Positions 6,370-15,086 of a stretch of 43,261 nucleotides of DNA are shown here, one piece after another; the first letter of the stretch is position 1, and every line of letters begins with the position of its first letter. Location of the stretch: the NCBI GenBank assembly GCA_017395935.1, contig JAFQNL010000023.1:1-43261 (forward strand), given 5' to 3'. The position numbers and the translations under genes were made by a program. The notes beneath the pieces are model-generated. The model was not told the DNA's origin, did no database searches, and was given only the letters and a program-made list of their open reading frames with translations. The stretch comes from Oscillospiraceae bacterium (lineage in GTDB: Bacteria; Bacillota; Clostridia; Oscillospirales; Oscillospiraceae).

Positions 6370-7017
6370 TCAAAAGATCTCTGCCAGTCGGGCCGGAGAA
6401 AGCGCCTCTGCCGGCAACGCCTCCCAGCTCTTTGTCTTCAGACAGAGGGCGGCATAATACCCCTCCTCCGGCCCCTCCAGCAGAGCGGAGGAAAAGCCTG
6501 CTCCCGGACAGACCGCCTCAAAACTCCCAAAGGGACAGAGCAGCCCCTGACCGGTACACTTGGCATAGGCTTCCTTGAGCGTCCAGAGCTGGAAGAGACG
6601 GCGGTTGTAGTCCTCAGGGGAGAGGTCGGCCAGCTCGCGCCGCTCAGCAGCGGTGAAACGCCGGGCCAGCCCCGGCCGGACCGGCCGGACCTGCTGGAGA
6701 TCCGCCCCTACCGGCACCGGCGCAAAGGCGCAGAGGGCCCAGTGACCGGAATGGGAGAGACTGAAGTGAAACTCCGGATGACCGGGGAGAAAGGGCTTGC
6801 CCAGCGGGTCCTCCTCCCGAAGGGCGGGAAGGGGAAGATCGGGGCGGTGCCGGCTTACGGCGTACTGGAAGAGCAGCTCGGCGCCCAGAGAGGGGAGATG
6901 GTCCTGGGGGGCCCGGGCAAGGATCCGTGCCTGCCGCCCCTCCGGAACCTGGAGCAGCCAGTCCGCCTCCCGGCCTGCCAGCTGCCGGCAGTCCAGCGTG
7001 TAGATCGCCGCCTTCAT
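6370..7017 (-). CDS. Sfp-type 4'-phosphopantetheinyl transferase
   Basis: A 215-residue transferase that moves the phosphopantetheine arm of coenzyme A onto a carrier-protein serine. Motifs: GKPFLPGHPEFHFSLSHSG (the usual 'KP...F..SHS' block), VPVGADLQQV for the GxDxE metal site, and LFQLWTLKEAYAKCTGQGL for the WxxKEAxxK motif. The metal-site Glu is Gln here, a change whose effect is uncertain since some relatives vary at this position. The ATG overlaps the malQ stop (ATGA), so it is translationally coupled to malQ; the longer upstream reading frame is inside malQ and is not used. No NRPS or PKS is nearby. It may serve fatty-acid ACP or a distant pathway. Confidence 0.85.
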   Translation of the reverse strand: MKAAIYTLDCRQLAGREADWLLQVPEGRQARILARAPQDHLPSLGAELLFQYAVSRHRPDLPLPALREEDPLGKPFLPGHPEFHFSLSHSGHWALCAFAPVPVGADLQQVRPVRPGLARRFTAAERRELADLSPEDYNRRLFQLWTLKEAYAKCTGQGLLCPFGSFEAVCPGAGFSSALLEGPEEGYYAALCLKTKSWEALPAEALSPARLAEIF

Positions 7018-8507
7018 CGGGGCAGCCGGCCGTAAAGACCGGTCAGATGGCGGAGCAGTCCGGCCACCTCGCTGTTGAGCGCTTCCCCACGGACCCGCCA
7101 GCTCCAGTTGGCCGGCCCTACCGTGCCCGGAAAGTTCATTCGGCTGTCCCCGCCCAGACACAGAGCGTCCTGCAGGGGCGCCATGGCCAGCTGACAGGGA
7201 GAGTGCCATGCTCCGGCAATGGCTGCCCAGCCCACCGCGTCCTGAGGGGAGATCCGGAGGTAGTCAGCGGCGTAGTGGCGCTGCCGACTGTCGGCCATGT
7301 CGTAATACCACTGGCAGAAAGTGGGAGTGTCATGGGTGCTGGTGTAAATGACCTTCGAGGGATCTGCCCGGTGGGGGAGAAAGTCGGATCCGCCCTCCGT
7401 GTCCCAGAAGGCGTCGGCCAGAACAGCCATACCGGGCAGCCCTGCCTGCTGAATGAACCGGAGGGCGGCCGGGCTGAGATCGCCCAGATCCTCGACAAGA
7501 TAGCGGCCCTGAGGGACGTTCTTTTGCAGCGCCTGAATCAGCTTCATCCCCGGCCCCTTCTTCCACTTGCCCATCAGAGGGCTTTCGGCCTGAGCGGGAA
7601 TCTCCCAATAGTCGGCAAGGGCCCGGAAATGATCCAGCCGGACCACGTCATAGAGCTCCATGGCTCCCTGAACCCGGCGGCACCACCAGGCAAATCCTGT
7701 CTTTTCGTGCTCCGGCCAGTTGTAGAGGGGATTGGCCCAGCGCTGGCCCTGATCGGAATACTGATCTCCGGGCAGGCCGCCCACATAGCGGGGCTTTCGG
7801 CCGGCCGAGAGTCGGAACAGCTGAGGATAGACCCAGACGTCTACCGAGTCGGGAGAGACGTAGATGGGGATATCCCCGATGAGAGATACACCCCGCTCCC
7901 GGGCATAGTCCCGAAGCTGAGACCACTGGGAGAAGAAGAGGTACTGAACAAACTTGTGATAGGCGATCTCATCGCTGAGCAGCTGGCTGTAGCGCTCCAG
8001 AGCGGCCTTCTCCCGGCGAATCAGCTTTTGATCCGGCCACTCCTGAAGGGGGAGGCCAAAGTGGTCCCGGAGGGCGGCAAAGAGGGCGTAGTCCTCCAGC
8101 CAGTCATGAGCGGAGGCAAAGTTCTGGACCTGAGCCAGCAGAGAGCGGTCGGCCCGCTGCCATGCCTTGTGCAGCAGCTCAGAGCGGACTACATGGAGAA
8201 AGGGAAAGTCTACCCGGTCGGGAGAGCCGGAAAATCGGGCGTACTCCAGATCCTCCCAGCTCAGCAGCTTCATGGCGGCCAGAGCGTCCAGATCCAGAAA
8301 GAGAGGGTTGCCTGCCTGACTGGAGATGGGCAGATAGGGACAGTCGCTGCCGCCGACTGCCGTCATAGGCAGTACCTGCCACCAGCTTTGACCGGCGCGC
8401 TGGAGAAAGCGAATAAAATGGCGGGCTTCCTGACCCATGGAGCCGATACCGTAGGGACCGGGGAGGGAGGACAGATGGAGCAGGATACCGCTGGAACGGG
8501 GAAACAT
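7014..8507 (-). CDS. malQ: 4-alpha-glucanotransferase (amylomaltase)
   Basis: A 497-residue GH77 enzyme that transfers glucan segments between malto-oligosaccharides. It starts MFPRSSGILLHLSSLPG, the classical N-terminus. The catalytic set is intact: nucleophile Asp in VVRLDHFRALADYWEIP, acid/base Glu in YLVEDLGD, and the third Asp in STHDTPT. IGDIPIYV and WANPLYNW are also family marks. The start at 8507 fits AGGAGG; an in-frame upstream extension to 8552 has no support. It belongs functionally with the glycogen genes at 28-37 kb but has its own promoter and is coupled to the transferase downstream. Confidence 0.96.
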   Translation of the reverse strand: MFPRSSGILLHLSSLPGPYGIGSMGQEARHFIRFLQRAGQSWWQVLPMTAVGGSDCPYLPISSQAGNPLFLDLDALAAMKLLSWEDLEYARFSGSPDRVDFPFLHVVRSELLHKAWQRADRSLLAQVQNFASAHDWLEDYALFAALRDHFGLPLQEWPDQKLIRREKAALERYSQLLSDEIAYHKFVQYLFFSQWSQLRDYARERGVSLIGDIPIYVSPDSVDVWVYPQLFRLSAGRKPRYVGGLPGDQYSDQGQRWANPLYNWPEHEKTGFAWWCRRVQGAMELYDVVRLDHFRALADYWEIPAQAESPLMGKWKKGPGMKLIQALQKNVPQGRYLVEDLGDLSPAALRFIQQAGLPGMAVLADAFWDTEGGSDFLPHRADPSKVIYTSTHDTPTFCQWYYDMADSRQRHYAADYLRISPQDAVGWAAIAGAWHSPCQLAMAPLQDALCLGGDSRMNFPGTVGPANWSWRVRGEALNSEVAGLLRHLTGLYGRLPR

Positions 8508-8554
8508 GAGGGCTCCTCCTTTCAGAGAGGAAGGTGGGAAGGATACTTTCAACC

Positions 8555-8584
8555 ATTATAGAGGATAAAAAGCGACCCTGTCAA
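8555..8584 (-). promoter_or_regulatory. Promoter of malQ
   Basis: Minus strand: perfect -35 TTGACA (8579-8584), 18-base spacer, perfect -10 TATAAT (8555-8560), about 50 bases upstream of the malQ start. Confidence 0.85.
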
Positions 8585-8636
8585 ACCGGGGCTGTCGAGA
8601 TATGGAAAAATAGTTTCCGAAGGCGGGGGAAAACCC

Positions 8637-8664
8637 TTGCAATTGTCGGACAGCTTGCTATAAT
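8637..8664 (+). promoter_or_regulatory. Promoter of the aro operon
   Basis: -35 TTGCAA (8637-8642), 16-base spacer, perfect -10 TATAAT (8659-8664). Transcription from about 8671 gives a roughly 245-base leader before aroF, long enough for the attenuator described below. Confidence 0.7.
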
Positions 8665-8696
8665 GAAAGGCAGAACTGACAACGCCGAGGTGCCCT

Positions 8697-8801
8697 ATGA
8701 ATAAAGCCGCCCTCAAAACCGCATCCTTTGCCTATTTTGGCTGTGGCCGATTTACCGGTTACGGCTTTTTTGGCATGGAGAATATGAGCGGGGCGCAATG
8801 A
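8697..8801 (+). CDS. Phe/Tyr-rich leader peptide of the aro operon
   Basis: A 34-residue open frame with its own GAGG ribosome site six bases upstream. It begins MNKAALKTA, and then from residue 10 reads SFAYFGCGRFTGYGFFG. Seven of the residues 11-25 are aromatic (five Phe, two Tyr), with no Trp. It stops with TGA at 8799-8801. Such a peptide makes ribosomes stall when charged Phe- or Tyr-tRNA is scarce, as in classical pheA-type attenuation. Its stop codon lies within CAATGAG (8796-8802), which is complementary to the 5' arm of the downstream terminator. The protein product itself probably has no function. Confidence 0.8.
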   Translation: MNKAALKTASFAYFGCGRFTGYGFFGMENMSGAQ

Positions 8802-8863
8802 GCGAAGTCTCCCGGTTCTGTTTCCGGGGGAAGGGTGCAGGCAGAACATACTTGTACAGTGAA

Positions 8864-8899
8864 AGGACTCATTGAGCGATCAATGGGTCCTCTTTTTTT
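8864..8899 (+). terminator. Attenuator terminator in the aro operon leader
   Basis: Stem AGGACTCATTGA (8864-8875) / TCAATGGGTCCT (8880-8891), tetraloop GCGA, then C and seven T. It lies 17 bases before the aroF start, with the aroF ribosome site AAAGGAG beyond it. Because it precedes the first structural gene, it must be overcome for expression. The CTCATTG part of its 5' arm can instead pair with CAATGAG (8796-8802) at the leader-peptide stop, an antiterminator. A separate hairpin CCCGG(8811-8815)/CCGGG(8824-8828) sits between the two partners. Confidence 0.85.
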
Positions 8900-8915
8900 G
8901 AAAGGAGCGAGAATT

Positions 8916-9935
8916 ATGGTCGTCATTATGAAACCCAGAGCCAGTCAGAACGACGTGCGCAAACTGGCGGCATATTTTGAGGCAAGAAACCTGAAGGTGG
9001 GCATTACTGTCGGTATGGGCTGCACCATTCTCGGTCTGGTGGGCGACACCACCGCTCTGGATATCGGCAAAATCCAGCAGTTTGATACCGTAGAGCGGGT
9101 CACCCGGATCAGCGAGCCCTATAAGAAGGCCAACCGGAAGTTCCATCCTGAGGACACCGTGGTGGACGTCTCCGGCGTCAAGGTGGGCCACGGCAACTTC
9201 ACCGTCATGGCCGGTCCCTGCTCGGTGGAGAGTGAGGAGCAGATTGTCTCGGTGGCCCGGTCGGTCCAGGCCGCCGGCGCCGGAATCCTCCGGGGCGGCG
9301 CGTTCAAGCCCCGTACCTCCCCCTACTCCTTTCAGGGCATGGGGATCCCCGGCCTGAACCTGATGCTGGAGGCCAAGGCGGAGACCGGTCTGCCCATCGT
9401 GACCGAGCTGGTCAGCCCCCATTACTGCGAGATCTTCAACGAAAAGGTGGATCTGGTCCAGATCGGCGCCCGGAATATGCAGAACTTCGAGCTGCTGAAA
9501 GAGGTGGGCAAGATGTCCAAGCCGGTCCTGCTCAAGCGGGGCCTCTGCGCCACCTATGAGGAGTGGATCATGTCGGCCGAGTACATTATGAGTCAGGGCA
9601 ACGAGAACGTAATTCTCTGCGAGCGGGGCATCCGCACCACCGAGACCTATACCCGAAATACGCTGGACGTCTCGGCCATTCCCTGTATCAAGCGCATGAG
9701 CCATCTGCCCATCGTGGTAGATCCCAGCCACTCCGGCGGCTACCGCTATCTGGTAGAGCCGCTGGCGCTGGCCGCCATTGCCGCCGGCGCGGACGGCCTG
9801 ATTATCGAGGTCCATAACGACCCCGACCACGCCAAATGCGACGGTCAGCAGTCTCTGACGCCCGGGCAGTTTGACACCCTCATGGGCAAGATGGGCAAGT
9901 TCGTGGAGCTCATGGGCAAGACCATCGTCCGCTGA
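8916..9935 (+). CDS. aroF: 3-deoxy-D-arabino-heptulosonate 7-phosphate synthase (type I)
   Basis: A 339-residue DAHP synthase, the first step of the shikimate pathway (PEP plus erythrose 4-phosphate). Residues 1-70 (MVVIMKPRASQNDVRKLAAY...) form the ferredoxin-like regulatory domain found in the Thermotoga/Bacillus subfamily, where it binds Tyr or Phe for feedback inhibition. The catalytic barrel has the metal and substrate motifs AGPCSVESEEQ, RGGAFKPRTSPYSFQG, IGARNMQNFELL and VVDPSHSGG. The start at 8916 follows AAAGGAG at good spacing; upstream in-frame codons overlap the attenuator terminator. It is the first gene of the aro operon, so enzyme-level and attenuation-level control may both act. 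Confidence 0.95.
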   Translation: MVVIMKPRASQNDVRKLAAYFEARNLKVGITVGMGCTILGLVGDTTALDIGKIQQFDTVERVTRISEPYKKANRKFHPEDTVVDVSGVKVGHGNFTVMAGPCSVESEEQIVSVARSVQAAGAGILRGGAFKPRTSPYSFQGMGIPGLNLMLEAKAETGLPIVTELVSPHYCEIFNEKVDLVQIGARNMQNFELLKEVGKMSKPVLLKRGLCATYEEWIMSAEYIMSQGNENVILCERGIRTTETYTRNTLDVSAIPCIKRMSHLPIVVDPSHSGGYRYLVEPLALAAIAAGADGLIIEVHNDPDHAKCDGQQSLTPGQFDTLMGKMGKFVELMGKTIVR

Positions 9936-9983
9936 GCGCGCCGGACAGAAGAGACCTTAGCCTTGAGAAAAGAAGGTGGAGCT

Positions 9984-11045
9984 ATGAAAACGATCACCGT
10001 CCCCCTGCCGGGCCGGGAATATGAGATTCTGATCCGCTGGGGTCTGCTGAAGGAGGCGGGGAGCTGCTGCCGCCGGGTGCTGCCCAAGTGCCGCAGAGCC
10101 CTGCTGGTCTCTGACAGCAATGTGGCCCCTCTCTATGGACCGGAAGCCGAGAAGAGTCTGCAGGAGGCCGGCTTTGAGACCCGGCTCCATGTGATCCCTG
10201 CCGGAGAGCGGAGCAAGAACGCGGAGGAACTGCTCTGCATTTGGAACGAGGCCATGGACTTTGGCCTCACCCGTACCGATGCCGTAATCGCTCTGGGCGG
10301 CGGCGTGGTGGGAGACCTGGCCGGCTTTGCCGCCGCCACCATCCTTCGGGGTATCCCCTTCGTCCAGATTCCCACCACTCTGCTGGCGCAGGTGGACTCC
10401 TCTGTAGGAGGAAAGGTGGCCATCGACCTGAGCGCAGGAAAGAATCTGGTAGGCGCCTTCTGGCAGCCCCGGCTGGTGCTCATGGATCCGGCCGTTCTGA
10501 CCACCCTCCCCGACGAGACCTTCTCCGACGGAATGGCTGAGGTAATCAAATACGGCTGTATCCGGGACCGGAACTTCTTCCGCCGTCTGGAAGGGGCGGG
10601 AGACCGGAACGGGATTATGGAAGAGATCGAAGAAGTGCTGGCCCACTGCTGTCGAATCAAGGCAGAGGTGGTGCTGGAAGACGAGCTGGATACCGGCCTT
10701 CGTATGATCCTCAATTTCGGCCATACGCTGGGACACGCCTATGAAAAGGCCTATCACTACGAGACCTATACCCACGGTCAGGCGGTAGCTGCCGGAATGG
10801 TGCTGGCCGCCCGCCTGGGTCAGCGGCTGGGACTGACAGAGCAGGGAACGGAGGAGGCTATTTCCGCCCTCTGTGCCCGGTTTGGCCTGCCTACCGCCAT
10901 TGAATGCAGTATCGAAGACTATACCGCCGCCATCGGTCTGGATAAAAAAGGCAGTGGCAGCGAGATTACCGTTATCTTCCTGAAAACGCTGGGAGAGACC
11001 CTGCCTACAAAAATGCCCAAGAGGGAGCTGCTGGAGCTGTTATGA
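9984..11045 (+). CDS. aroB: 3-dehydroquinate synthase
   Basis: A 353-residue NAD- and metal-dependent enzyme converting DAHP to 3-dehydroquinate. Family blocks: ALGGGVVGDLAGFAAATILRG (NAD binding), PTTLLAQVDSSVGGKVAIDL, KNLVGAFWQP, FSDGMAEVIKYG and the metal-binding ILNFGHTLGHAYE. The ATG at 9984 has GGTGGAG in front; a TTG at 9963 is in frame but poorly placed. The stop overlaps the aroA start (ATGA), coupling translation. Confidence 0.96.
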   Translation: MKTITVPLPGREYEILIRWGLLKEAGSCCRRVLPKCRRALLVSDSNVAPLYGPEAEKSLQEAGFETRLHVIPAGERSKNAEELLCIWNEAMDFGLTRTDAVIALGGGVVGDLAGFAAATILRGIPFVQIPTTLLAQVDSSVGGKVAIDLSAGKNLVGAFWQPRLVLMDPAVLTTLPDETFSDGMAEVIKYGCIRDRNFFRRLEGAGDRNGIMEEIEEVLAHCCRIKAEVVLEDELDTGLRMILNFGHTLGHAYEKAYHYETYTHGQAVAAGMVLAARLGQRLGLTEQGTEEAISALCARFGLPTAIECSIEDYTAAIGLDKKGSGSEITVIFLKTLGETLPTKMPKRELLELL

Positions 11046-12268
11046 ACGTTATCATTACCCCAAGCAAATTGACAGGGGCGGTCACCCCGCCTGCCTCCAA
11101 GAGCCAGAGTCACCGGCTGGTCATTGCTGCCGCTCTGGCACAGGGAACCAGCCGGATTGGCAACCTCTCCCGCAGCGAGGACATTGACGCCACTCTGGAC
11201 TGTATGGCGGCGCTGGGCGCCCGCTGGGAGGCCGGGGCGATTACCGGCGTATCGGCCGGAAGAGCTGGCGAAGGGCCGCTGCCCCGGCTGGATTGCCGGG
11301 AGTCGGGCTCTACCCTCCGCTTTCTGATCCCGGTGGCTCTGGCCCTTCGGGGCGGCGGCGTCTTTACCGGAAAGGGCCGCCTGCTTCGCCGTCCCATGGA
11401 GCCCTATGAGAAGCTGTTCCGGGACCGAGGTATCTTCTATCAGGCCGGAGAGGAGCAGATTGTCGTAAAGGGCGAGCTGAAGGCAGGAAACTACACTCTG
11501 CCTGGAGACGTCTCCAGCCAGTTTATTACCGGCCTTCTCTTTGCCCTTCCGCTGCTGGATGGGGAGTCTGAGCTGACGCTGACGACTCCGCTCCAGTCGG
11601 CAGGCTATGTGGATATGACGCTGGAGGCCCTTGACCAGTTCGGCGTCCGGGTGGAGAAGCTGGCCAACGGCTGGCGGATTCAGGGTCCCCAGCGGCCGCA
11701 GGCCGGAGAGCGCCGGGCAGAGGGGGACTGGTCTCAGGCCGCCTTCTACTACGCCGCCCGGGGCCTTGGAAACCCGGTAGAGATCTGGGGCATGAACCCG
11801 GACTCGGCTCAGGGTGACCGAATCATCCGGGCCTATGCCGGCCAGCTCAATGGAACGGGGACGGTGACGCTGGACGTAAGCCAGTGTCCCGATCTGGCCC
11901 CCGCCCTTGCCGTCCACGCCGCCCTCCGGGCCGGAGAGACCACCCATATCGTCGGTGGGGCCCGGCTGAGAATGAAGGAGAGCGACCGGATCGAGGCGAT
12001 TACTTCCGAGCTGAACAAGCTGGGAGCCCAAGTGACCCAGACCGCCGACTCCATGACCATTCGGGGCGTATCCGCCCTCAACGGCGGCGAGACCGACAGC
12101 CATAATGACCATCGGATCGCCATGATGCTGGCCATTGCCGCCACCCGGTCCCGGGGACCGGTACTGATCCGGGACGCGGGCAGCGTGGCCAAGAGCTATC
12201 CCCATTTCTGGGAGGACTATCAGATGCTGGGCGGCCGGATCGCCGTCAGTGACAGCCAGAGGAGGTAA
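11042..12268 (+). CDS. aroA: 3-phosphoshikimate 1-carboxyvinyltransferase (EPSP synthase)
   Basis: A 408-residue enzyme adding enolpyruvyl from PEP to shikimate 3-phosphate. N-terminal substrate loop PPASKSQSHRLVIAAAL, then the RESGSTLRFLIPVAL motif, PGDVSSQFITGLLFALP, and the C-terminal LRMKESDRIEAITSELNKLG and SHNDHRIAMMLAI. A conserved region that usually reads 'LxxRPM' is present as LLRRPMEPY. The protein is slightly shorter than average. It sits between aroB (ATGA overlap) and aroC (5-base gap). Confidence 0.96.
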   Translation: MNVIITPSKLTGAVTPPASKSQSHRLVIAAALAQGTSRIGNLSRSEDIDATLDCMAALGARWEAGAITGVSAGRAGEGPLPRLDCRESGSTLRFLIPVALALRGGGVFTGKGRLLRRPMEPYEKLFRDRGIFYQAGEEQIVVKGELKAGNYTLPGDVSSQFITGLLFALPLLDGESELTLTTPLQSAGYVDMTLEALDQFGVRVEKLANGWRIQGPQRPQAGERRAEGDWSQAAFYYAARGLGNPVEIWGMNPDSAQGDRIIRAYAGQLNGTGTVTLDVSQCPDLAPALAVHAALRAGETTHIVGGARLRMKESDRIEAITSELNKLGAQVTQTADSMTIRGVSALNGGETDSHNDHRIAMMLAIAATRSRGPVLIRDAGSVAKSYPHFWEDYQMLGGRIAVSDSQRR

Positions 12269-12273
12269 GAGAG

Positions 12274-13329
12274 ATGAAACACGCGATTTTCGGCGAGTCC
12301 CACGGCCCTGCCATTGGCGTCGTACTGGAAGGAGTTCCCGCCGGCGTAGAGCTGGATCTGGAGGAGATCGCTTTTGAAATGGCCCGCCGGGCGCCGGGAA
12401 AGGACCCCTTCTCCACTCCCCGGAAGGAGGCCGATCAGCCTGAGATTCTCTCCGGCTTCTTTCAGGGCCACACCACCGGCACTCCCCTCTGTGCCCTGAT
12501 CCGAAATACAGATACACGGAGCCGGGACTATGAAAAGACCAAGGATCTGGCCCGGCCCGGCCACGGCGATTGGCCCGGCTTTATGCGCTATCAGGGCTAC
12601 AACGACTACCGGGGCGGCGGCCACTTCTCCGGCCGACTGACGGCTCCGCTGGTCTTTGCCGGCGCTGTTGCCAAGCAGGTGCTGGCCGGAGAGGGCATTG
12701 TTATTCTGGCCCATATCAAGTCCATCGCCGATGTGGAGGATATTCCCTTCTCCCAGTGCCTGCTCAGCAGCGAGCTGGGCTGGGAGCTGCGGGAGAAGTC
12801 CTTCCCCGTGCTGGAGGACCAGCGTGGGGAGCAGATGCGTCAGGCCATTGTCCGGGCAAAGGAGGAGGGCGACAGCGTGGGCGGCGTAATCGAGTGCGCC
12901 GTGCTGGGCCTCCCGGCAGGCATGGGCGCCCCCGACTACGGAGAGAACGTAGAGGGTATCGTCTCTCAGCAGATGTTCGCCATCCCCGGCGTCAAGGCCA
13001 TTGGCTTTGGCGACAGCTTTGGCATTGCCCGGCTCCGGGGCAGCGAGGCCAACGATCCGCTCTACGTCCGGGGCGGCATGGTGGTCTCTCCCACCAACCA
13101 CTCCGGCGGCGTCAACGGCGGTATTACCAACGGCCTGCCTCTGGTCTTTGAGGTGGCCCTTCGCCCCACCGCCAGTATTTCCAAACAGCAGGATACCATT
13201 GACATGGATCTCTGGCAGGACAGTAAGCTGACCATTCAGGGTCGGCATGACCCCTGTATTGTCCATCGGGCCGTCCCGGTTGTCGAGGCCGCCGCCGCGC
13301 TGGCCGTCTGTCAGCTCATGGGTATCTGA
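12274..13329 (+). CDS. aroC: Chorismate synthase
   Basis: A 351-residue FMN enzyme producing chorismate from EPSP. Motifs: FGESHGPAIG, RRAPGKDPFSTPRKEADQ, RPGHGDWPGFMRYQGYND, YRGGGHFSGRLTAPLVFAGA, and near the end GGVNGGITNG and RHDPCIVHRAVPVVEA. All FMN and substrate His/Arg landmarks are visible. The N-terminus is unusually short: MKHAIFGESHG lacks the usual 8-10 residue beta-strand before the GESHG motif. AGGAGG directly precedes this ATG, and I see no better upstream start. Confidence 0.95.
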   Translation: MKHAIFGESHGPAIGVVLEGVPAGVELDLEEIAFEMARRAPGKDPFSTPRKEADQPEILSGFFQGHTTGTPLCALIRNTDTRSRDYEKTKDLARPGHGDWPGFMRYQGYNDYRGGGHFSGRLTAPLVFAGAVAKQVLAGEGIVILAHIKSIADVEDIPFSQCLLSSELGWELREKSFPVLEDQRGEQMRQAIVRAKEEGDSVGGVIECAVLGLPAGMGAPDYGENVEGIVSQQMFAIPGVKAIGFGDSFGIARLRGSEANDPLYVRGGMVVSPTNHSGGVNGGITNGLPLVFEVALRPTASISKQQDTIDMDLWQDSKLTIQGRHDPCIVHRAVPVVEAAAALAVCQLMGI

Positions 13330-13342
13330 GAAGGAGGGCATC

Positions 13343-14509
13343 ATGAAGGATCTGAAAGAACTCCGACAGGAGATCGACCATATCGACCGCCAGCTGGTAG
13401 ATCTCTTCCTCCGACGCATGGAGGTCTCCCGGAATGTGGCCGCCTATAAGATTGCCAACCAGATTCCCGTTCTGGATCCGGAACGGGAGCGTCAGGTGCT
13501 GGAGGCCAAGGCGGCTATGGTAGACACCCCCGAGATGAAGGCCGACGTGAACAAGCTCTTTGAGACTATTATGTCCATGTCCCGAGCCCACCAGCGCTCG
13601 ATTATGCAGGAGCGGGAGCCCGATCCCCCCGGTTTCTTCCGCCAGTACCGGACTATCTATCCTCCCATTGAGAATCCCCGCGTGGTCTATCAGGGAATGC
13701 CCGGAGCCTACAGCGAGGAGGCCGCCGTCAACTTCTTTGGCCCTCAGGTCAACAGTCAGGGCCAGAACTGGTTTGAGGACTCCTTCCGGGCGCTGGCTGA
13801 AGGGGCGGCAGACTACGCTGTTCTTCCCATTGAAAACTCTACCACCGGCTCCATCCGGCAGGTCTGCGACCTGCTCACCGAGTACCAGTTCTATATGGTG
13901 GGCGAGACCACTGTTAAGGTGGAGCACTGCCTGATGGCCCTCCCCGGTACCCGGCTGGAGGAGATCACCCACGTCTATTCCCATGAGCAGGGCCTGTTCC
14001 AGTCCGACCGCTTTCTGGACAGCCATCCCGACTGGGTTCGGATTCCCCTTCTGGATACAGCCGGCAGCGCCAAGTTTGTAGCCGAGTCCGGAGACCGGAC
14101 CAAGGCGGCCATCTGCAGCCGCCGGGCGGCCAAGGTCTACGGTCTGGAAATCCTTGTAGAGGGCACCAACCACAATGGGGAGAACTATACCCGCTTTGCC
14201 GTCATCTCCCGTCGGCCTGAACTGCGGCCGGGCAGCGATAAAATCACCGCCATTTTCAACCTGCCCCACCAGAGCGGCTCTCTCCATGAGATCCTGACCA
14301 TTTTCGCGGTCAATGGCCTGAACCTGGTCAAGCTGGAGTCCCGGCCCATGCCCGGTCGGAAGTGGGAGTATATGTTCTTTGTGGAGTTTACCGGCAATCT
14401 CCATGCCCCGGGCATGGACGCCATCCTCCGGGAGTTGGACCAGTCTACCGACCAGTTCCGGGTACTGGGTAACTACAAAGCCAATCTGGCTCAGCATGAC
14501 GCGGTATAA
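13343..14509 (+). CDS. pheA: Bifunctional chorismate mutase / prephenate dehydratase
   Basis: A 388-residue fusion. Residues 1-85 are an AroQ-type chorismate mutase (LRQEIDHIDRQLVDLFLRRM, later the conserved KxxxxxPVLDPERE). From about 110 to 290 there is prephenate dehydratase (VVYQGMPGAYSEEAA, LPIENSTTGSI, and the catalytic TRF motif in NGENYTRFAVISRR). An ACT domain follows (SGSLHEILTIFAVNGLNLVK and ESRPMPGRKWEYMFFVEF), whose GALH- and ESRP-like motifs bind Phe for feedback inhibition. It makes phenylpyruvate from chorismate, which explains Phe codons in the operon leader. The start at 13343 follows AAGGAGG. Confidence 0.96.
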   Translation: MKDLKELRQEIDHIDRQLVDLFLRRMEVSRNVAAYKIANQIPVLDPERERQVLEAKAAMVDTPEMKADVNKLFETIMSMSRAHQRSIMQEREPDPPGFFRQYRTIYPPIENPRVVYQGMPGAYSEEAAVNFFGPQVNSQGQNWFEDSFRALAEGAADYAVLPIENSTTGSIRQVCDLLTEYQFYMVGETTVKVEHCLMALPGTRLEEITHVYSHEQGLFQSDRFLDSHPDWVRIPLLDTAGSAKFVAESGDRTKAAICSRRAAKVYGLEILVEGTNHNGENYTRFAVISRRPELRPGSDKITAIFNLPHQSGSLHEILTIFAVNGLNLVKLESRPMPGRKWEYMFFVEFTGNLHAPGMDAILRELDQSTDQFRVLGNYKANLAQHDAV

Positions 14510-14520
14510 GGGAGAGGGAT

Positions 14521-15021
14521 ATGAATAATATTATCCTGATTGGCATGATGGGCTGTGGAAAGTCCACCTGCGGCCGGCTCCTCCGGGATAAACTGGGACT
14601 GGAACTGGTGGATACGGACGAACTCATTGTGGCCTGCGCCGGCATGACCATCAGCCAGATCTTCGACCAGCGGGGTGAACTCTGGTTCCGGGACCTGGAA
14701 AGCGAGATCGCCCGGGAGCTGAGCCAGACCTCCGGTCTGGTCATCGCTACCGGCGGCGGCCTCCCCCTCCGGGAGGAGAACCGGAGGGCCCTCCGGGAGA
14801 CCGGCACCGTCTTCTTCCTCAACCGGGATCCGGAGGCCATCTTTGAAAAGGCCAACTTGCAGGACCGGCCGCTGGCCCAAATGGGCAGGGAAAACTTTCT
14901 CCAGCGCTTCCGGGACCGGGAGCCCATCTACCGGGCCATGGCGCACCATGTAATGCCCTGTCTGGTCTCTGCCGACCAGACCACCGACGATATAATTGCC
15001 ATTCTGGGCCGGCAGTCCTGA
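14521..15021 (+). CDS. aroK: Shikimate kinase
   Basis: A 166-residue ATP-dependent kinase phosphorylating shikimate. Walker A is LIGMMGCGKSTCGRLL, the shikimate-binding DTDE is in LVDTDELIV, ATGGGLPLRE is the GGG substrate loop, and the lid contains LQDRPLAQMGRENFLQRFRD with its catalytic Arg. It is the last gene of the operon. aroD and aroE, needed between aroB and aroK products, are not in the window. Confidence 0.95.
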   Translation: MNNIILIGMMGCGKSTCGRLLRDKLGLELVDTDELIVACAGMTISQIFDQRGELWFRDLESEIARELSQTSGLVIATGGGLPLREENRRALRETGTVFFLNRDPEAIFEKANLQDRPLAQMGRENFLQRFRDREPIYRAMAHHVMPCLVSADQTTDDIIAILGRQS

Positions 15022-15031
15022 TGAGCAAGAG

Positions 15032-15063
15032 AAAAAACGCCCCTCATCCTTGGATGAGGGGCG
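15032..15063. terminator. Bidirectional terminator between aroK and the kinase-like gene
   Basis: Stem CGCCCCTCAT (15038-15047) / ATGAGGGGCG (15054-15063). On the minus strand it is followed by six T, terminating the convergent kinase-like gene. On the plus strand it lies 16 bases past the aroK stop with a weaker, delayed T-run. Confidence 0.85.
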
Positions 15064-15086
15064 CTGCACTTTTTGCGGATGGGGGC

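Follow-up and report, generated by a model that had tools for sequence, protein, structure and literature searches.

Leader-peptide attenuation of pheA (by pheL) and of trp (by trpL) is textbook knowledge in enterobacteria. For Clostridia, accounts of amino acid regulation usually centre on T-boxes and repressors. The T-box leaders of Firmicutes control the same kinds of genes by tRNA charging, with no translation of a leader ORF.

An upstream ORF with one or more Phe codons, located before aroF and beside an intrinsic terminator, is known as motif uORFC-13-1 (PMC8632094). In the part of that paper available to us attenuation is proposed, and the motif is reported only in Acholeplasma and in environmental sequences, with 24 representatives. 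The accessible text of PMC6429828, a study of five genomes including Clostridium novyi, presents two uORF candidates with shikimate genes, for which F and Y are noted; the motifs in its Fig. 6b may be members of the wider leader set described below. For other amino acids, the available portions of the respective papers describe a His leader peptide before hisZ and hisS* in bacilli (PMC2965389), a leucine-rich attenuator peptide of Staphylococcus aureus (PMC5794164) and branched-chain leaders of Firmicutes (PMC5794164, PMC5864092). The accessible parts of PMC4833913, PMC11109978 and PMC2494555 contain no description of an aromatic leader before DAHP synthase, and a literature search, to which subscription papers contributed little, returned no published description of such leaders across Clostridia.

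We analyzed a stretch of 43,261 nt from an Oscillospiraceae bacterium (contig JAFQNL010000023.1), called the window in the following, which is part of a genome of 2.07 Mb that is 97% complete. The window contains an aro-pheA operon, and the positions of its genes and of the leader elements are listed in Table 1. An earlier interpretation made from the letters alone (the sequence-only reading) had proposed that a leader peptide rich in Phe and Tyr controls this operon by attenuation, and it had counted six common-pathway genes. The gene count was right for DAHP synthase, aroB, aroA, aroC and aroK and wrong for pheA. The proposed mechanism was supported by our comparison of related loci and by predicted folding, and we regard ribosome-mediated transcription attenuation as the best explanation of the aro-pheA leader, with a probability of roughly 0.8.

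Table 1. Elements of the aro-pheA leader and operon, with positions in the window.
Feature	Position	Strand	Basis or remark
Predicted promoter, sigma-70-type, TTGCAA-16 nt-TATAAT, TG before second hexamer	8637..8664	+	10/12 consensus matches
Shine-Dalgarno sequence of leader ORF, GAGG	8687..8690	+	sequence
Putative leader peptide ORF, 34 codons, F/Y-rich	8697..8801	+	homologues in relatives, ATG columns invariant
Regulatory codons F11 to F25	8727..8771	+	aromatic positions kept in relatives
Hairpin P1 within ORF, 11 bp, loop AUUUAC	8739..8766	+	terminator-like scan, folding, covariation
Antiterminator 5' strand CAATGAG	8796..8802	+	pairing recurs in relatives
Hairpin nested in antiterminator, UCUCCCGG...CCGGGGGA	8808..8831	+	predicted, RNA downstream of stalled ribosome
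Second hairpin nested in antiterminator	8835..8857	+	predicted structure
CTCATTG, terminator 5' arm and antiterminator 3' strand	8868..8874	+	CTCA core nearly invariant in 42 loci
Intrinsic terminator: hairpin 8864-8891 (12 bp, loop GCGA) and T-run 8893-8899	8864..8899	+	scan, folding, compensatory changes
Shine-Dalgarno sequence of DAHP synthase, AAGGAG	8902..8907	+	sequence
DAHP synthase, first gene of operon	8916..9935	+	NCBIfam NF006421, TIGR01361 above cut-off; Pfam PF00793, PF18152
aroB, 3-dehydroquinate synthase	9963..11045	+	TIGR01357 above cut-off
aroA, EPSP synthase	11042..12268	+	TIGR01356 above cut-off
aroC, chorismate synthase	12274..13329	+	NF003793, TIGR00033 above cut-off
pheA, bifunctional chorismate mutase-prephenate dehydratase	13343..14509 (start approximate)	+	Pfam PF01817, PF00800, PF01842 above cut-off
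aroK, shikimate kinase, last gene	14521..15021	+	NCBIfam shikimate kinase models, best 1.3e-37, all below curated cut-offs
Hairpin 3' of aroK, likely operon end	15038..15063	+	CGCCCCTCATCCTTGGATGAGGGGCG, then T-run 15070-15074; read by eye

The Shine-Dalgarno sequence, the 34-codon ORF with its aromatic codons, the stop codon within CAATGAG and the terminator with CTCATTG, all named by the sequence-only reading, were present at slightly refined coordinates, while the promoter and hairpin P1 are elements absent from it. The predicted leader peptide reads MNKAALKTASFAYFGCGRFTGYGFFGMENMSGAQ and has seven Phe and Tyr residues within 15 codons (F11, Y13, F14, F19, Y22, F24 and F25). P1 runs into UUUUUU (8766-8771), which forms codons F24-F25, and together they score as terminator-like; the region 8500-9000 contains two terminator-like sites, compared to a mean of 0.6 in shuffled sequences. 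The stop codon TGA (8799-8801) lies inside CAATGAG, for which CTCATTG is a perfect 7-nt complement. The whole leader (8671-8915) has a folding energy of -90.3 kcal/mol (z -3.4), and none of 200 shuffled sequences was equally stable. The locus combines the parts of an attenuator: a short ORF with start signal and pathway codons, a terminator between this ORF and the first gene, and a competing antiterminator strand that would lie under a ribosome at the stop codon. Competition between the two structures is predicted.

The end of the promoter-like site is 32 nt away from the leader ATG, and from its position transcription would be expected to start near 8671. Similar sites no more than 130 nt upstream of the leader were detected in 18 of a set of 42 loci that includes the window's (shuffle mean 3.1, maximum 9), and in 17 of these 18 the -10 element ended 29-36 nt before the ATG; the scan did not find such a site in the other 24 loci. 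A transcription start downstream of the leader, which would speak against attenuation, is thus not what the predicted sites point to. On the minus strand, a perfect consensus promoter (TTGACA-18-TATAAT, 12/12) at 8555-8584 points away from the aro promoter and precedes a gene for 4-alpha-glucanotransferase (7014-8552, minus strand).

Our analysis shows the anatomy of the locus, its conservation and covariation, and the pairing that folding predicts; from these we infer how ribosome stalling, polymerase pausing, the sensing of Phe and Tyr and the outcome for expression would be connected. RNA polymerase would start near 8671 and probably pause after P1, which gives a ribosome time to load on the leader ORF. 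When Phe-tRNA or Tyr-tRNA in charged form is scarce, the ribosome would stall at the aromatic codons, screen the 5' part of the leader and leave 8796-8802 free. This strand could then pair with 8868-8874 as soon as the latter is made, no terminator would form and the aro-pheA operon would be transcribed. With charged tRNAs the ribosome would reach the stop codon and cover 8796-8802, so that the terminator could form and transcription would end. Without translation the 5' leader RNA would compete with the antiterminator, and termination would also be the default.

Conservation of the leader was analyzed in the 110 nearest DAHP-synthase loci (L002-L111, that of the window included), of which 95 remained when 4 with short upstream regions and 11 duplicates were removed. 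The nearest named loci are labelled Oscillospiraceae, Ruminococcaceae, Clostridiales, Flavonifractor, Pseudoflavonifractor and the like, and because of these labels class Clostridia was taken as the scope of the comparison. A search by regular expression was too narrow (31/99) and an iterated HMM was used in its place. It detected a homologous leader peptide in 77 of the 95 upstream regions, the window included (E ≤ 0.01). Since the HMM was built from the same relatives, this count describes the family rather than tests it. Reverse complements and 5 base-shuffled copies of each of the 95 regions, which guard against compositional matches, gave zero matches at E ≤ 1.

The leader consensus is close to LTTASFLFSFGWARFMGAGFFGMEK and contains the motif GWxRFxGxGFF. 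A non-redundant set of 43 loci, reduced to 42 by removal of the truncated L041 and including the window, was used for alignment; the ATG columns and one G column of the Shine-Dalgarno region were invariant. The aromatic codons were conserved in the relatives, as the sequence-only reading required, and so was the pairing between stop region and terminator. Trp was present in 36 of the 42 leaders and absent from that of the window. A Lys codon at +11 after the CGA (8781-8783) was observed outside P1 and before the antiterminator strand: 62 of 77 leaders have K, encoded by AAA in 58 of these, and the window has Asn.

Conservation of start, frame and residues within the family would also be expected if the ORF encoded a functional small protein and the terminator was constitutive. 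The position of the stop codon ranges from CGA+36 to +90, however, the peptide of the window matches no NCBIfam or Pfam family, and the ORF is tied in position to the terminator and to DAHP synthase. We therefore consider a small protein highly improbable. Four other leaders compared to NCBIfam and Pfam gave a single NCBIfam match at chance level (E 0.13).

The HMM did not find a homologous leader in 18 of the 95 nearest loci. Six of these (L030, L093, L095, L100, L109, L110) are preceded by different ORFs that contain 5-7 Phe/Tyr in 15 codons. The other 12 (L008, L053, L059, L062, L067, L068, L072, L073, L081, L082, L087, L102) are close relatives in which no aromatic leader precedes DAHP synthase. 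Eleven of the 12 were examined, and in 8 of them a same-strand frame that stays open for at least 120 codons ends 69-151 nt upstream of the DAHP-synthase gene. In the whole stretch fetched for 16 of the 18 loci (L008 and L030 excluded) there was no match to the P1 model, and the best HMM match had an E value of 1.8. The 12 loci provide a natural comparison set for the absence of attenuation.

Conservation of the leader motif extends to the codons. Among the 77 leaders, R is encoded by CGA in 76/77, the following F by TTT in 76/76 and the G at -3 by GGC in 54/54. Over the 42 loci, the synonymous codon identity was 0.85 in the core, but only 0.57 in the leader codons just upstream and 0.60 in the first 100 codons of DAHP synthase. 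The nucleotides behind GWxRFxGxGFF are conserved since this coding stretch doubles as hairpin P1, and the motif is best explained as an RNA structure laid over the coding sequence. Over 61 distinct sequences, P1 pairing was possible in 80.5% of cells in a first register and in 84.3% in a second, bulged register. In both registers the paired percentage, the count of doubly changed cells and the score for covariation were each beyond the reach of all 500 shuffles. The number of pairs changed on both sides and the number of further pair types were matched by 450 and 284 of the 500 shuffles in the first register and by 378 and 128 in the second. RNAalifold recovered only 5 pairs from the same rows. 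One slid control outscored the first register in covariation (0.221 vs. 0.159), while the second register was above all its slid controls in score and percentage. Hairpin P1 with the following U-run resembles a pause hairpin and probably has a role in transcription pausing.

The same data bear on the view that a nascent peptide GWxRFxGxGFFG might arrest the ribosome on a bound aromatic ligand, and not via uncharged tRNA, just as TnaC arrests the ribosome in response to tryptophan. Such a mechanism could account for conserved residues beyond the aromatic ones (R in 77/77, G at +5 in 75/77). However, the conservation concerns codons located in the stem and loop of P1, the synonymous identity is raised in the P1 region and not in the codons just upstream, and the listed leaders of other families are rich in aromatic residues but lack the motif. 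Peptide arrest appears unlikely to us as the basis of the switch.

The terminator is the consensus structure of the 42 loci, and 9 of its 13 pairs showed compensatory changes. The CUCA core of its 5' arm was nearly invariant, while other terminator pairs varied with compensation. A nearly invariant arm in a varying stem asks for a second partner. The partner strand resembles RAUGRG and is located at or beside the stop codon. In 37/42 loci this strand can form 6 bp or more with the terminator arm of its own locus, the helix starting at CGA+43 to +57; the 200 dinucleotide-shuffled sets gave 9.1 such loci on average and 16 at most. For helices of at least 7 bp at the same fixed place the count was 29/42 (shuffle mean 3.0, maximum 8). 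Pairing of at least 6 bp at this place was absent in the five loci L015, L016, L017, L023 and L058. The best helix began no more than 14 nt from the end of the stop codon in 38/42 loci, and in the remaining four (L017, L025, L058, L061) it lay 23-54 nt before the stop codon, inside a longer ORF.

The pairing energy of the strands was less informative. Own and swapped strands within the family gave -12.53 and -12.54 kcal/mol, that is, there was no locus-specific matching. Swapping of strands costs no pairing energy because the core is invariant, and the swap test is therefore neutral. The duplex energy compared to shuffled strands was significant (p ≤ 0.05) in only 8/42 loci.

P1 itself could be the main switch, which would stop transcription early unless a ribosome follows closely, and the downstream hairpin would then be secondary. 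P1 with its U-run indeed scores as a terminator, and its Phe codons are mostly TTT. This reading leaves a terminator that is the consensus structure over 42 loci, with an invariant core and a positioned partner strand, without the function that these need, and the U-run after P1 is interrupted in many loci (UAUUUU and other forms). A main role of P1 in termination seems very unlikely.

We modelled the choice between antiterminator and terminator in transcripts reaching up to the completed 5' arm of the terminator, leaving out the RNA 5' of the ribosome. With the ribosome at three successive aromatic codon positions, the third being the last Phe codon, the mean antiterminator probability over the 42 loci was 0.42, 0.62 and 0.76. 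It was 0.25 with the ribosome at the stop codon and 0.20 without ribosome. The probability exceeded 0.5 in 21, 27 and 36 of the 42 loci at the stalled positions, in 7 with the ribosome at the stop codon and in 9 without ribosome. For the third position, the value was higher than at the stop codon by more than 0.05 in 33/42 loci and lower by as much in 5. Shuffled linkers (20 sets) gave a mean of 0.35 at this position, with 14.3 of 42 loci above 0.5 on average and 18 at most. For the window the values were 0.73, 0.63 and 0.68 with the stalled ribosome, 0.001 at the stop codon and 0.043 without ribosome.

With an earlier, cruder mask, which kept only the ribosome footprint unpaired and left the 5' RNA free to pair, the means for 38 of the 42 loci were 0.23-0.32 for the stalled positions, 0.21 without ribosome and 0.04 at the stop codon. 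The values for the window were 0.002-0.09 when stalled and did not exceed 0.09 throughout. Equilibrium folding at full length preferred the terminator on average throughout. The proposal that stalling at the aromatic codons favors the antiterminator was supported by the folding in which the 5' RNA was left out, and not by the cruder mask. Because of the low values with this mask and the equilibrium preference for the terminator, the model depends on folding during transcription and on screening of the 5' RNA by the ribosome. Both are standard for trp-type attenuators.

Since a conserved hairpin with the loop CGAUUU and a terminator are present, the leader might also be an RNA that binds a ligand or a protein (riboswitch, T-box or target of an RNA-binding regulator) and thereby controls the terminator, with the ORF being incidental. 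Rfam gave no gathering-level match in the window and no match at E ≤ 1 in the leader; at E ≤ 5, the region 8560-8960 gave only two chance matches to human lncRNAs (E 1.3 and 2). Conservation of the ATG, the frame and the aromatic codons argues against an incidental ORF, as does the aromatic richness that is kept in loci with quite different leader and terminator sequences. We attach next to no weight to a binding RNA as the regulator. The T-box covariance model (RF00230) had no match in the window, though it finds T-boxes elsewhere in the genome: there were 11 matches, 6 of them over the cut-off, all on other contigs. Leader-peptide control would thus be used beside T-boxes and not for want of them.

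The distribution of candidate leaders was followed at two levels. A model of P1 (R1) detected one strong site in the window's own genome, which is that of the window (E 2.9e-12; the next match had 0.07). Across 295 genomes of the order it scored strongly (E ≤ 2.2e-8) at 13 sites, one of them that of the window. Each of the 13 lies upstream of DAHP synthase in a genome of the window's family. Of the 26 listed members of this family, 13 have a strong P1 site and 13 do not. Further 14 weak matches (E 2.8e-4 to 0.0093), with no DAHP synthase in the fetched flanks, were rejected as chance.

A wider criterion asked for an ORF no more than 400 nt upstream with at least 7 Phe/Tyr/Trp per 15 codons; ATG, GTG or TTG starts were accepted and a Shine-Dalgarno sequence was not required. 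It was applied to 40 loci of the order, hand-picked from DAHP-synthase matches not yet assigned a locus, and to 69 loci of the class (29 returned and 40 hand-picked), so that both sets are samples and not censuses. Such an ORF was present in 26/40 loci of the order (0 in the reverse complement; mean 1.4 and maximum 3 in dinucleotide shuffles) and in 46/69 loci of the class (4 in the reverse complement; shuffle mean 2.6, maximum 5). As L206 duplicates L159, the combined count of 72/109 becomes 71/108 distinct DAHP-synthase loci, from 40 of 56 families, with 11/16 loci in the window's family. L197 was counted negative, although its leader is the one also present in L088, a member of the nearest set; L222, whose match starts at residue 23, was kept as positive, and L242, which failed the frame check, was kept as negative. 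A terminator was located between the aromatic ORF and DAHP synthase in 65/71 distinct loci (66/72 before removal of the duplicate), compared to 0.7 expected for 72 loci from single-base shuffles.

The leaders of the wider sample, for example KYYFYFSWGYFYFSTGYFFCKK (L210) and AYVFYFYFYFICDKVKVISAAK (L168), are rich in Phe and Tyr and lack the P1 motif. The last 40 residues of 65 of these leaders consist of 16% Phe, 11.5% Tyr and only 0.7% Trp. The abundance of Phe and Tyr and the scarcity of Trp suggest that Phe and Tyr are likely the amino acids sensed.

Matching of antiterminator strands to terminator arms was also compared between families, with one locus per family (n = 39). The match to the own arm scored 13.8, compared to 12.4 for the arms of other families (sd 0.36, z about 4). 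Twenty draws were made, and in every one of them at most 1 of 1000 permutations reached the own-arm score. The median rank of the own arm was 18/65, so single cases are often weak. As judged from these scores, the strand sequences differ by lineage and their complementarity is kept. The sequence-only reading had called for covariation between CAATGAG and CTCATTG. The pairing recurs at a fixed place in the near relatives, and own strands match better across families; within the family, where the core is invariant, the swap test was neutral. Terminator 5' arms of the order and class loci recur in types, one with CTCAT (e.g., in families f65, f83, f56, f53, f9, f46, f5, f48) and another with CACAG or GCAG; in some loci of the second type, the last leader codons look complementary to the arm.

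Rfam was run on 60 of the wider loci, namely all 40 loci of the order and 20 leaderless loci of the class. A T-box over the gathering score was located upstream of DAHP synthase, in the direction of the gene, in 3 of them (L191, L194, L244), and none of the three has an ORF that satisfies the aromatic criterion. A glmS ribozyme match (95.9 bits) at positions 435-589 of L188 adjoins the DAHP-synthase gene of a relative on the opposite strand.

Taken together, we find it fairly probable that throughout class Clostridia the first shikimate enzyme is as a rule controlled by leader-peptide attenuation that reads Phe and Tyr codons. The logic would stay the same, while peptides and antiterminator and terminator strands drift until they are unrecognizable or arise anew in different lineages. 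Within part of the Oscillospiraceae, one segment of the ORF would be under two codes, that of the aromatic codons and that of a pausing hairpin which fixes codons. A textbook leader-peptide switch, in a form that is missing from the annotation libraries searched, thus seems to govern the entry gene of the pathway in this major group of gut bacteria. From the signature of the leader, the aromatic genes would most likely switch on only when aromatic amino acids run short, and the output of the aro-pheA operon is predicted to follow the charging of Phe-tRNA and Tyr-tRNA. The sequence signatures are now available for annotating small ORFs that are otherwise unexplained, and the many lineages offer material for studying how one regulatory logic outlives the turnover of its sequence.

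The proposed mechanism as such is the classic one. Of particular interest are its apparent prevalence in the class, the sequence turnover under constant logic and the constraint from the overlapping P1. With the pheA and trp attenuators of enterobacteria, the leader of the window shares the Shine-Dalgarno sequence, the short ORF with cognate codons, the predicted, mutually exclusive antiterminator and terminator, and the proposed choice between them by ribosome position. Unlike these, it occurs in another phylum and precedes DAHP synthase and a six-gene aro-pheA operon, and it uses both Phe and Tyr codons. Its P1 lies wholly inside the ORF and excludes the antiterminator strand, and its antiterminator encloses further hairpins. 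T-box leaders regulate the same types of genes and stand upstream of DAHP synthase in the three loci named above, whereas the window has no T-box match. The His leader (PMC2965389) and the leucine-rich leader (PMC5794164) are, as described in the accessible parts of these papers, also leader-peptide attenuators of Firmicutes, but for other amino acids and other genes. The layout of uORF, Phe codon or codons and terminator before an aro gene is the same as in uORFC-13-1 (PMC8632094), a comparison based on the description in the available text of that paper.
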